A DNA stretch of 34,779 nucleotides, taken from a virus. Position numbers and translations under genes: made by a program. The DNA lies in IMG/VR virus record IMGVR_UViG_3300020054_000004, positions 1-34,779 of that record; one strand, written 5' to 3'. The notes under the pieces are model-generated. The model was not told the DNA's origin. It saw nothing but the letters and a program-made list of their open reading frames with translations, and did no database searches. Below, piece by piece: positions 12,264 through 21,320 of this stretch (position 1 is the stretch's first letter; every line of letters starts with the position of its first letter).

Positions 12264-12704
12264 CTAGCGCCAATCCCCCCACGCACCTGGGTGTTGCTGT
12301 GGCTGAGGCTGAGGTTGTGGCTGCGGCTGCCCCCAGCTGTTGGCTGGCTCATTGGGGGCTGGGGTAGACTCTGGTGCAGAGTCTCTCTTACTCAGGAAAA
12401 CGACATCACTGGCCACCACATCCCAAAATTTGCGCCCCTGATCATCCTCCCTGCTCGAGAGGCGCCCCTCGACATACACCTTGGCACCCTTGCGCAAATA
12501 TTGCTGGCAGAGCGCTGCGAGCCCTCCCCAACATTTGATGCTGTGCCACTCAGTGCGCTCCTGCTGCTGCCCCGCCTTGTCTGTCCAGCGCTCTGAGGTG
12601 GCCAGAGAAAATCGGCACAGCGTTTTGCCGCTGGTGGTTGTCTTTGCCTCTGGGTCGCGGCCCAGATTGCCCACCAACGTAACCTTATTAATGCTGCCTG
12701 CCAT
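12264..12704 (-). CDS. ssb: Single-stranded DNA-binding protein
   Basis: A 146-residue protein with the classic SSB OB-fold (residues 1-108). It has INKVTLVGNLGRDPEAK, FSLATSERW, RTEWHSIKCWGGLA, YLRKGAKVYVEGRL and FWDVVASDVVFL. The C-terminal tail is Pro/Gln-rich with Gln-Pro dipeptides and ends PGAWGDWR. It lacks the acidic DDDIPF-type tip that most bacterial SSBs use to bind partner proteins. The ribosome site AGGAT is 7 nt upstream. A duplicated 29-bp element lies upstream. It protects single strands during phage replication and recombination. Confidence 0.93.
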   Translation of the reverse strand: MAGSINKVTLVGNLGRDPEAKTTTSGKTLCRFSLATSERWTDKAGQQQERTEWHSIKCWGGLAALCQQYLRKGAKVYVEGRLSSREDDQGRKFWDVVASDVVFLSKRDSAPESTPAPNEPANSWGQPQPQPQPQPQQHPGAWGDWR

Positions 12705-13765: not shown

Positions 13766-14650
13766 CTAGCGGCGGCTGGGGCCCCCCATATGATAGTGCA
13801 GCTCCCCATTGCGGCAGGCGCCCCTGAGGCGATCAGCCACGGGCGCCGTGAGATAGCCTGCGCCAAAAAATCCCAACTCAGCAGGCGTGAGGTTAGAGCT
13901 GATCATCACGGGCAGCGCAGCTGCGTGCGCCTCATGCAGCAAGCGACAAATCTCTCTGCGCTCGAGCTCCCCCCGCTGCATCCCCACCTCATCAATGAAG
14001 AGTGCGCGGGCACCCTTGATGCTGGCGCCCGCATCGATCTGCTCATGCCCCTCCACCTTATCCATCTGGTTTGAGAGCAATGAGCGGTAGTGGTGCGCCT
14101 CGATATAGGCAGCCCTGCGCCCGGATAGGGTGGCCCTCAGCGCAGCCCCCACCATGAAGTGGGTTTTGCCTGTGCCAGGGGGCCCCGTGAGGATGAGCGC
14201 GGGGGCCTCGCCTGCGTCTGCCAGCTCAAACCAGCGCTCGAGGATCGCGCCCAGCCCCTCTGGCATCTCATAGTTTTCGAGCGTGAGGCGCTGGGCACCC
14301 GCGGGCAGGCGCATCTTCTGCACAGCCCTGAGCTGCCTATTCATCACCCCACACGGGCAGAGCTTGAAGCGACGGCGCCCAGCGTCATCTGTAGTGCTGC
14401 GCCCATGCCCCCCACCCGCGCAGGGCAGACAATTGAGGTTGCAGCGCCCCAGCTGCCGCGCCACCACCACCCTGCGCCGCTGGGTGGGGTCTACCTCTGC
14501 GCTCTCCTCGAGGCGCTCGAGCAGTGAGGTGGGGGGCTGCTCGAGCGCCTCTGCCTCTGCGGCCTCTTTTCGGTGTGCGCCTGCGCGGAAACCCTCGAGC
14601 ACAGCAGCGAGGCGATCAACTGCGCCCCCGATATGCACTAGCTCACTCAT
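13766..14650 (-). CDS. DnaC/IstB-like helicase loader ATPase
   Basis: A 294-residue AAA+ protein. Walker A is GPPGTGKT (156-163) and Walker B is ALFIDEVG (216-223). A sensor-like SSN follows at about 251, and an arginine-rich end at about 276. The N-terminal third has a cysteine cluster, C70-x3-C74-x2-C77 and C98-x-C100, resembling a zinc-binding domain. Proteins of this type load the host replicative helicase, the role of lambda P. It overlaps the initiator-like gene by 8 bp, with AGGAGAG ahead of its ATG, and is followed by a strong terminator. Confidence 0.88.
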   Translation of the reverse strand: MSELVHIGGAVDRLAAVLEGFRAGAHRKEAAEAEALEQPPTSLLERLEESAEVDPTQRRRVVVARQLGRCNLNCLPCAGGGHGRSTTDDAGRRRFKLCPCGVMNRQLRAVQKMRLPAGAQRLTLENYEMPEGLGAILERWFELADAGEAPALILTGPPGTGKTHFMVGAALRATLSGRRAAYIEAHHYRSLLSNQMDKVEGHEQIDAGASIKGARALFIDEVGMQRGELERREICRLLHEAHAAALPVMISSNLTPAELGFFGAGYLTAPVADRLRGACRNGELHYHMGGPSRR

Positions 14651-15305
14651 GGCTCTCTCCTCTGAATTGTTGGTGGTAGGCCTCGATTGATGAGGCTAGG
14701 CGCGAGAAGTAGGGGGTGACCTCTCCCTCTGGCTCTGGCTGTGGCTCGGGCTCGGGCTCTGGCTGGGGTGCTGGCGAGCTCCACCAATCCCAACCAGAGG
14801 CAGGGGGAGAGTTGACTGGCGCCTCTGGCTTACCCTGCTGCTGGGCGCCAGCGCCTGCGCGCTCAGTCTGCTCAACAGATTCTCTGCTGTTGGTAGATGT
14901 TGGTAGAGGTTGGTATGGGGGGAAAGAAACTGCACATTTGGTGTGCACTATCTTGCCCATTTCCGGTGCACTATCCTGCACCCCAAACTGTGCACTATCT
15001 TGCACAGGTGCACTATTCTGCACCTGTGCACTATCTTGCACAGTTTGGGGGATGATGAGGCGGCGCCCTTGCACATATCCTTGGCGCTTGAGCTCTTGAA
15101 GCAAATTGCTCGCCTGCCTCTCCGAGTACCCCAGCTGCGCGACGATACGCGCGCGGGGGCCACGCCCCAGCTGCCCCGTCTGATAATCCAGATAGCTGGT
15201 GAGCTCGAGCAGAGCCAACCTTGCACCCGGGCTCAGGTCTGCTGCCTGCCAGATGGCGCGCAGGTCAGCGAATGATGGGGCGTGAGGCCCCGGCTTACAG
15301 CCCAT
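14643..15305 (-). CDS. Replication initiator-like winged-helix protein carrying iterons (lambda O-like)
   Basis: A 220-residue protein. Residues about 24-85 form a winged helix-turn-helix (LSPGARLALLELTSYLD, ARIVAQLGYSERQASNLLQELKRQGYV). The middle (about 88-125) is encoded by the iterons and reads as VQDSAQ-type repeats. The C-terminal part is a Glu-Pro/Gln-Pro linker followed by a terminal helix (YFSRLASSIEAYHQQFRG) that could contact the loader. Gene layout matches lambda O, where the origin lies inside the gene and the loader follows. The ribosome site GGAGGAGGG precedes the ATG at 15305. I infer an initiator role from this layout; sequence identity to O is not obvious. Confidence 0.75.
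   Translation of the reverse strand: MGCKPGPHAPSFADLRAIWQAADLSPGARLALLELTSYLDYQTGQLGRGPRARIVAQLGYSERQASNLLQELKRQGYVQGRRLIIPQTVQDSAQVQNSAPVQDSAQFGVQDSAPEMGKIVHTKCAVSFPPYQPLPTSTNSRESVEQTERAGAGAQQQGKPEAPVNSPPASGWDWWSSPAPQPEPEPEPQPEPEGEVTPYFSRLASSIEAYHQQFRGESHE
14727..14765. repeat. Hexamer-type repeat coding a Glu-Pro/Gln-Pro linker
   Basis: Imperfect GGCTCG/GGCTCT/GGCTGT hexamers encode the PEPEPEPQPEPE stretch of the initiator-like protein. Similar tracts occur in the genes at 11500 and 12264. It is probably a flexible linker region prone to length change. Confidence 0.6.
14889..14918. repeat. Three tandem 10-bp repeats beside the iterons
   Basis: GTTGGTAGAT, GTTGGTAGAG and GTTGGTATGG lie end to end, one per helical turn, 24 bp from iteron 1 and inside the initiator-like gene. 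They may be an unwinding or accessory protein-binding element of the origin. Confidence 0.6.
14943..15041. repeat. Five 16-bp dyad-symmetric iterons, probable replication origin
   Basis: The units are at 14943-14958 (arm altered, TGCCC), 14966-14981, 14990-15005, 15008-15023 and 15026-15041, with consensus GTGCACTATCTTGCAC. Each is itself an inverted repeat (GTGCA-N6-TGCAC). Start-to-start spacing is 23, 24, 18 and 18 bp. Unit 1 is out of coding phase with the others, yet its DNA is conserved, so selection is on DNA and not on the peptide. Five such sites inside an initiator-like gene next to a helicase-loader gene is the lambda ori layout. Confidence 0.8.
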
Positions 15306-15318
15306 CTCTCTCCCTCCT

Positions 15319-15390
15319 CCTCATTGGGTCACAATAATGTATTGACAACCTCTTTGCGTGTTGTCAATAATGTTGACACTCCCAATGAGG
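15319..15390. promoter_or_regulatory. Nested-dyad divergent promoter/operator of the replication switch
   Basis: Two inverted repeats share one axis (15354.5). The inner arms are TATTGACAAC (15340-15349) and GTTGTCAATA (15360-15369); the outer arms are CCTCATTGGG (15319-15328) and CCCAATGAGG (15381-15390). The inner arms place TTGACA on both strands. On the plus strand TTGACA (15342-15347) is followed after 18 bp by AATAAT (15366-15371). CAATAATGT also recurs directly at 15332 and 15365. It sits between the initiator-like operon and the RHH regulator gene, so autoregulation by the RHH protein is likely but inferred. Confidence 0.75.
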
Positions 15391-15459
15391 GGAGGGGGGG
15401 GATCTGTATACGGGGCCATGGGGCCAGAGGGCCAGAGGCCGAAGAGAAGAGGAGAGAGA

Positions 15460-15633
15460 ATGAGCCAGATGATCACCTACAACCAGCGCCTGCCGCGCGA
15501 GCTCCTCGAGCAACTCGACGCAGAGCTGGCGCACGCCCGCGCCGCCACCCCTCGGCTCAGCCGCTCTGCGCTGGTGCGCGAGATGCTGGAGGCTGAGATC
15601 CTGCGCCGGCAGGCGCAGCGGGGGCAGCAGTGA
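15460..15633 (+). CDS. Ribbon-helix-helix (Arc/CopG-like) regulator
   Basis: A 57-residue protein with the RHH layout: a short strand (MITYNQRLP), helix 1 (RELLEQLDAELAHARAA), and helix 2 (SRSALVREMLEAEILRRQAQ). RHH dimers insert the strand into the major groove at paired short operators. The start at 15460 is set by GGAGAGAGA; a longer in-frame stretch from 15358 overlaps the promoter. It is the first gene of the plus-strand operon next to the nested-dyad operator, its probable target. The stop overlaps the next gene's GTG. Confidence 0.85.
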   Translation: MSQMITYNQRLPRELLEQLDAELAHARAATPRLSRSALVREMLEAEILRRQAQRGQQ

Positions 15634-19895: not shown

Positions 19896-21320
19896 TTAAA
19901 TGATGTACCAACCAACACCAGCCCCAGCGCATACCAAGGTAAAGCTTGAATATTGCACTGAGAGGGTTTGATTGGTTGCCTGATCGTCGATGTCCTCACT
20001 GTTGCGATCAATTGTCACTGCTGCAGTGCCCAGCCGCTTGATCTGCAGCTTGAACCCAGCGCCCACATTGCCGCTGATCGCTGGCAGGGTCACAGTGACT
20101 GCAGAGGCCCCATTGTTGATCAGATAGACGCGCTCGAGCTCTGCCGCGGTCACTGCGCCAGGATCGGTGCCTGTGCCATCACCAATGGTGAATGAGGCGC
20201 TCTGGGTGTAGACGTTAGGGCGTGAGCCGCCACCAGATGCTGCTGGCTCTGCACGCCAGCCGCCTGCAGCGTGATCATAGGTCAGCACATAGTTATCAAT
20301 CCCTGCGCCTGCCGTATAACTGACATCTGCCAGAGCCGTCATGTTAGACGCTGCAATGCGAGCATCTGCGCGGGCGTCGGCGCGGGCGTCTGTGTAGTAG
20401 AGGTTAGCTGCTCCCTCTGCCACATCATCTGAATCGAGCACCACCACACCTGTGGCACCGTTCACACTGTCAACTGGCGCAGATGCTGCTGCCTCTGCAC
20501 GCCAGCCACCTGCAGCGTGATCATAGGTCAGCACATAGTTATCGATCCCTGCGCCTGCCGTATAGCTGACATCTGCCAGAGCCGTCATGTTGGACGCTGC
20601 AATGCGAGCATCTGCGCGGGCGTCAGCGCGGGCGTCTGTGTAGTAGAGGTTGGCTGCTCCCTCTGCCACATCATCTGAATCGAGCACCACCACACCTGTG
20701 GCACCGTTCACACTATCAACTGGCGCAGATGCTGCTGCCTCTGCACGCCAGCCACCTGCAGCGTGATCATAAGTCAGTACATAGTTATCGATCCCTGCGC
20801 CTGCCGTATAGCTGACATCTGCCAGAGCCGTCATGTTGGATGCCGCAATGCGAGCATCTGCGCGGGCGTCGGCGCGGGCGTCTGTGTAGTAGAGGTTAGC
20901 TGCTCCCTCTGCCACATCATCTGAATCGAGCACCACCACACCTGTGGCACCATTCACTGAGCTTACTGCGTCTGTATTGTCGATCTTGTCGATCTTGCTG
21001 TTGTCGATCACCCCACCCATATCTGCATTTACAATGAGGTGATCGCCGATTGCCCAATCACGCCCAAACTGGGTGCCAGCCACGCTCACCACATAGAAAT
21101 CACCCTTGAGCGCATTGCTGAGCGCAGGGGTGCCCGTGCTCGCGTCAAATGAGCCCTGATAGGTAAGCTGCCCCGTGAGGGCTGTATTTTCCCACTGCCC
21201 TGAGCCGCTGTTGTATTGCAGGATCTGGCCATTGGCCAGCAGCCCCAGGGTGACATCAGAGAGCCCGCTGAGCGCAGTTGCGCCACCACCACCACCGCCA
21301 CCAGAAATCATCAATGTCAT
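19896..21320 (-). CDS. Tail fibre protein with three 82-residue repeats
   Basis: A 474-residue protein. After a Gly-rich N-terminus come a strand-rich region and three nearly identical 82-residue units (VNGATGVVVLDSDDVAEG, NLYYTDARADARADAR, AGIDNYVLTYDHAAGGWRAE). The NGxTGxVVLDxDDxxEG...NLYYTDAR motif is common in phage tail fibres, where it forms the trimeric shaft. The C-terminus (about 380-474) is a separate beta domain with Gly/Thr/Val. The start has GGGAG about 10 nt upstream. It probably binds the host surface. Confidence 0.85.
   Translation of the reverse strand: MTLMISGGGGGGGATALSGLSDVTLGLLANGQILQYNSGSGQWENTALTGQLTYQGSFDASTGTPALSNALKGDFYVVSVAGTQFGRDWAIGDHLIVNADMGGVIDNSKIDKIDNTDAVSSVNGATGVVVLDSDDVAEGAANLYYTDARADARADARIAASNMTALADVSYTAGAGIDNYVLTYDHAAGGWRAEAAASAPVDSVNGATGVVVLDSDDVAEGAANLYYTDARADARADARIAASNMTALADVSYTAGAGIDNYVLTYDHAAGGWRAEAAASAPVDSVNGATGVVVLDSDDVAEGAANLYYTDARADARADARIAASNMTALADVSYTAGAGIDNYVLTYDHAAGGWRAEPAASGGGSRPNVYTQSASFTIGDGTGTDPGAVTAAELERVYLINNGASAVTVTLPAISGNVGAGFKLQIKRLGTAAVTIDRNSEDIDDQATNQTLSVQYSSFTLVCAGAGVGWYII
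20236..20959. repeat. Three tandem 246-bp repeats in the tail fibre gene
   Basis: The period is 246 bp (for example TTCACACT at 20461 and 20707). The copies differ at only a few positions, mostly third codon positions. The near identity suggests recent duplication and a site of copy-number change. Confidence 0.85.

Follow-up and report, generated by a model that had tools for sequence, protein, structure and literature searches.

An iteron array within a phage initiator gene as a probable origin of replication

The DNA analysed here (the window) is a 34,779-base phage contig whose two ends have an exact 83-nt repeat in common, so that the contig is probably complete. Its initiator-loader cluster is encoded on the minus strand and comprises a gene for a single-strand DNA-binding protein (SSB, 12264–12704; PF00436, E 3.5e-31), a gene for a DnaC/IstB-like AAA+ helicase loader (13766–14650) and a replication initiator gene (14643–15305) of 220 codons, the stop of which is overlapped by the start of the loader gene. 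The loader, recognised as DnaC-like and placed after the initiator in a preliminary description of this DNA, is identified concordantly by phrog_50 (E 3.2e-18) and PF01695 (39.7 bits, above the cut-off of 24.1). Profile searches of the main ORFs gave no hit to a DnaB-type helicase, a DNA polymerase, a primase or a transposase, and loading of the host helicase is therefore the natural reading. Transposition as the mode of replication was considered on account of a Mu-type portal and the IstB-like ATPase, and was rejected in view of the missing transposase among these ORFs and of a contig that closes on itself through the 83-nt repeat. Elsewhere in the window, three long, near-identical tandem repeats (about 240–260 nt, 96–97% identical) occupy positions 20234–20957 of a minus-strand gene (19896–21320), whose product is probably a virion or tail-fibre protein.

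The initiator consists of a winged helix (approximately residues 14–81), a linker encoded by DNA repeats (residues 89–121), a Pro/Glu-rich linker and a short C-terminal helix. Residues 14–79 match the ‘replication initiation protein’ family phrog_270 (E 6.4e-6), in agreement with the winged-helix N-terminus proposed earlier, but this match spans only positions 35–98 of the 383 in the profile, leaving the C-terminal part of the family unmatched; the Pfam model HTH_36 scored 20.4 bits on the same N-terminus, under its cut-off of 25. Profile-profile comparison with other initiators gave a weak similarity (E 9e-4, probability 23%), a tblastn search of an annotated phage collection gave no match, a sequence search of the PDB returned nothing useful, and an AlphaFold model built on two sequences was too poor for use (mean pLDDT 42). 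The protein had been described as unrelated to lambda O. This holds with respect to Phage_rep_O (PF04492), which lambda O matches at 5.7e-36 and the window initiator does not match, but has to be softened for the O-like family phrog_345, to which lambda O (5e-17) and, weakly, the window initiator (E 0.007) both show similarity.

Five GTGCANNATNNTGCAC-type dyads lie within the initiator gene at 14943–15041, all of them where they had been reported. They correspond to five copies of GTGCACTATCTTGCAC with at most two mismatches each: unit 1 at 14943–14958 (one mismatch), unit 2 at 14966–14981 (one), unit 3 at 14990–15005 (none), unit 4 at 15008–15023 (two) and unit 5 at 15026–15041 (none), with start-to-start spacings of 23, 24, 18 and 18. 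Units 2–5 have perfect 5-bp arms and the form GTGCA-N6-TGCAC, while unit 1 is an imperfect dyad in which one arm base is changed (GTGCA...TGCCC). Nowhere else in the window does GTGCACTATCTTGCAC find a match, even with up to three mismatches. As 0.46 matches are expected by chance and five were reached in none of 100 shuffles, a tandem array of such near-identical units in the initiator gene is beyond chance.

Four of the five units are read in one shared frame and encode VQ(D/N)SA, which raised the possibility that the repeats serve the protein, as a functional linker peptide that the DNA repeats merely follow. We regard this explanation as scarcely credible. Unit 1 carries the DNA motif one frame off the other four, as the preliminary description had noticed, and yields MGKIVH instead of VQDSA; arrays of mixed frame also occur in other phage initiators (see below); and the choice of codons in the array is far from free. 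When the protein was held fixed and codons were drawn according to the codon usage of the phage, 4 of 200,000 trials gave perfect arms in all four in-phase units, a result that disfavours selection at the peptide level. The serine codon AGT, for example, is used in all four in-phase units and for 6.5% of the serines in this phage.

Comparison with a diverged relative (L002), whose initiator has 88% protein identity to that of the window, pointed in the same direction. Synonymous changes affect 1 of 26 codons in the array (codons 87–113) versus 24 of 76 comparable codons before it (Fisher p 0.003), and none of codons 123–142, which cover an AT-richer segment downstream in the gene; for the array and this segment together (codons 87–142) the depletion has a p value of 7e-4, with block limits that were set after seeing the data. 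A search of viral contigs for further relatives by initiator, loader and capsid found the initiator in this one diverged relative only (contig G009 ends just short of the initiator and in contig G007 just the end of the loader is present), so conservation here rests on a single comparison. In L002 the core of unit 1 is changed from GGGCAAGATAGTGCAC to GGGCAATAAAGTGCAC (coding strand) and the arms alone are kept. The off-phase unit 1 had been put forward as the proof of selection on the DNA; it is indeed off phase, but its sequence is imperfect here and altered in the relative, which makes it the weakest evidence for such selection rather than the strongest. The claim itself stands on the codon simulation and on the rarity of synonymous changes in the array: by these two measures, the second from one relative, the DNA of the units is itself under selection, and not the peptide alone.

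A distinctive detail of the array, absent from the preliminary description, is the fusion of units 3–5 and their flanks into a single 70-bp palindrome (14981–15050), centred on unit 4, with arms of 32 nt that are 88% complementary. It lacks a T-run after it and is thus not a terminator. The symmetry extends beyond the units to the flanks (CCCCAAAC/GTTTGGGG), and as DNA the whole folds into a single, very stable hairpin (-30.8 kcal/mol, z -10.7), as would be expected if the functional element were a cruciform or single-strand hairpin, acting as a structural origin or RNA element, instead of separate dyads. Yet units 1 and 2 lie outside the palindrome, one spacer base differs in L002 and breaks the symmetry there, and hairpins between iterons, each of them an inverted repeat, are also possible in origins of the lambdoid type (PMC7466680). 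We therefore consider a purely structural element very unlikely.

Two further features adjoin the array. The first is a candidate unwinding segment (14872–14954), the AT-richest part of an otherwise GC-rich gene, which reaches 60% AT in its best 30-mers but only about 50% over 60 nt; three TTGGTA repeats in exact 10-bp steps (14890–14915) adjoin the iterons, inside the part without synonymous change relative to L002. The second is a putative divergent control region (15306–15460) that separates the initiator gene from a small ribbon-helix-helix-like gene. It contains nested inverted repeats and, on the plus strand before the small gene, a promoter-like TTGACA-N18-AATAAT (15342–15371). This region may be an early switch.

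A searching of genome contigs with the iteron pattern returned mostly promoter operators, not initiators. In many actinobacteria, pairs of GTGCANNATNNTGCAC dyads lie between genes for an EamA-type transporter and an XRE-cupin regulator (L008, L009, L015, L048, L052 and similar loci), and these pairs are likely a conserved operator. Because dyads of this type thus occur in bacterial genomes as close pairs, for the most part in the promoter region between these two genes, and winged helices also act as repressors, we considered that the dyads of the window might be operators at which a DNA-binding protein, perhaps the initiator, represses or blocks the initiator-loader operon, with the origin elsewhere. 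The five units, however, lie at least 265 bases inside the gene rather than at a promoter, and they come just after the winged helix, the position they hold in proven phage origins. An intragenic array of five units is better explained by an origin than by an operator, the latter being in our estimation quite unlikely; moreover, auto-repression through an origin array is also possible and compatible with the origin role.

To place the array in context, 26 phage initiator genes were surveyed: those of the window and its relative, lambda O, TP901-1 Rep, r1t ORF11, and others found by loader or winged-helix similarity. An array was scored when at least three repeats were reproduced by none of 40 codon shuffles. 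By this criterion 21 of the 26 initiators have an array, which in most cases directly follows the winged helix, and in 15 of them it has at least four repeats; of 47 other genes, taken from these phages and the window, none has one. Some of the initiators are interrelated, and some were chosen for their similarity to PhiR49_2 once the repeats of the latter were known; TP901-1 and ctQRb9 are among the few cases that switched between passing and failing from one run of 40 shuffles to another. About half of the passing arrays have mixed reading phases, among them those of lambda O (2,1,1,0), Skulduggery, mEp021, PVP-XSN and vB_Pae_U7. In many initiators (among L084–L107) the array is immediately followed by codons for an EPVxEPV-like stretch, and neither this stretch nor the in-gene array looks widely annotated. 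In Pseudanabaena phage Pam5 (L102), a region at about 1480–2080 has no annotated gene, shows similarity to winged-helix initiators and carries three GGGGTCA-GAATG-TGACCCC dyads; an initiator gene and its origin were probably overlooked here.

Akin to the window, the ori/O/P region of lambda (and O/P of Stx phages) has inverted-repeat iterons inside the initiator gene, after the DNA-binding domain, with an AT-richer segment beside the array and the loader gene directly downstream. The lambda iterons, imperfect inverted repeats within O, lie beside an AT-rich region and are the sites to which dimers of O bind (PMC7466680). They differ from those of the window in sequence, to which they are unrelated, and in spacing, since lambda has steps of 20–24 bp and mixed frames whereas units 3–5 of the window are set more tightly, at 18 bp. 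The proteins differ as well: the window initiator, with its 220 aa, is shorter than lambda O (299 aa) and without Phage_rep_O, and its loader is an ATPase of the DnaC/IstB type.

Parallels in non-lambda families are established by published in-gene repeats in SPP1, TP901-1 and Tuc2009. In SPP1, gp38 binds the repeats of oriL inside gene 38 and has the loader gp39 as its partner; as in the window, the repeats sit in the initiator gene and a loader is present, and SPP1 has in that gene an AT-rich unwinding region (PMC6316719), to which the candidate segment of the window would correspond. SPP1, which we compared by description, differs in encoding a DnaB-type helicase of its own (gp40) and in having a second origin. 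Among the lactococcal P335 phages, TP901-1 ORF13 and Tuc2009 Rep are reported to bind repeats within their own genes, and r1t to have a homologous organizer with a DnaC-like loader next to it (PMC8965321), as in the window. TP901-1 Rep, like the window initiator, matches HTH_36 and phrog_270, but the P335 organizers have other repeats and a DnaD-like or other C-terminal domain that is absent from the window protein. The phrog_270-type initiators of SfV, PhiR49_2 and PseuP_222 likewise have a winged helix followed by three to four repeats at about residues 89–123, with a GTGCA or TGCA half-site, and PhiR49_2 combines a strong phrog_270 match with a DnaC-like loader in the next gene; unlike the window, SfV and PhiR49_2 have TTCAC as second half-site, and all three proteins are of low identity to the window initiator and have a longer C-terminal region. 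The preliminary description had spoken of a lambda-type origin in a different family. The family does differ; the novelty that this implied does not hold in light of SPP1, TP901-1 and Tuc2009.

Taken together, these results make it highly likely that the phage's origin of replication has its initiator-binding part in this array, within the initiator's own gene, and the five dyads very probably serve as binding sites for the product of that same gene. A lambda-type arrangement, in which the initiator gene carries the iterons and the loader gene follows it, explains the data best and finds good support in the comparisons above. This reading rests on an array that recurs in most of the sampled initiators, including that of lambda, for which binding by O is proven, and in none of the other genes tested; on the excess of units over chance, the biased codon choice and the synonymous depletion; on initiator and loader profiles in a phage without a helicase, polymerase, primase or transposase recognisable by profile in the ORFs scanned; and on the published experiments with SPP1, TP901-1, Tuc2009 and lambda. 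Our confidence is limited by the modest AT content of the candidate unwinding segment, the sub-threshold HTH_36 score, the poor structure model, the spacing tighter than that of lambda, the single diverged relative, and a GC skew that does not mark the array over the window, its extremes at 6.7 and 12.4 kb following gene orientation more than anything.

By analogy with the characterised systems, one initiator dimer would occupy each GTGCA-N6-TGCAC dyad, with the winged helix making the contact, and wrapping of the DNA by four or five such dimers would put the AT-richer segment downstream in the gene (about 14872–14954) under strain until it melts. The DnaC/IstB-like loader from the next gene could then put host DnaB on the opened DNA, and replication would start here. 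An unlikely but conceivable variant is a stripped-down lambda-type origin, in which an initiator with little beyond a winged helix and a short C-terminal helix acts on three dyads fused in the 70-bp palindrome, which would extrude or melt as a structural part of initiation and not serve only as independent sites for dimers.

In the open literature that we searched, we found no statement of a general rule of in-gene arrays in phage initiators, which is not proof of its absence. As individual cases are already known, the gain is modest and practical. The comparison suggests that phage initiators commonly bear a repeat array directly after the winged helix. Such a signature could aid the location of origins in phage genomes when nothing but sequence is available, and it carries the warning that tandem peptide repeats in initiators may be shadows of DNA sites. 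For the uncultivated phage lineage studied here, the analysis provides a predicted origin together with its initiator.
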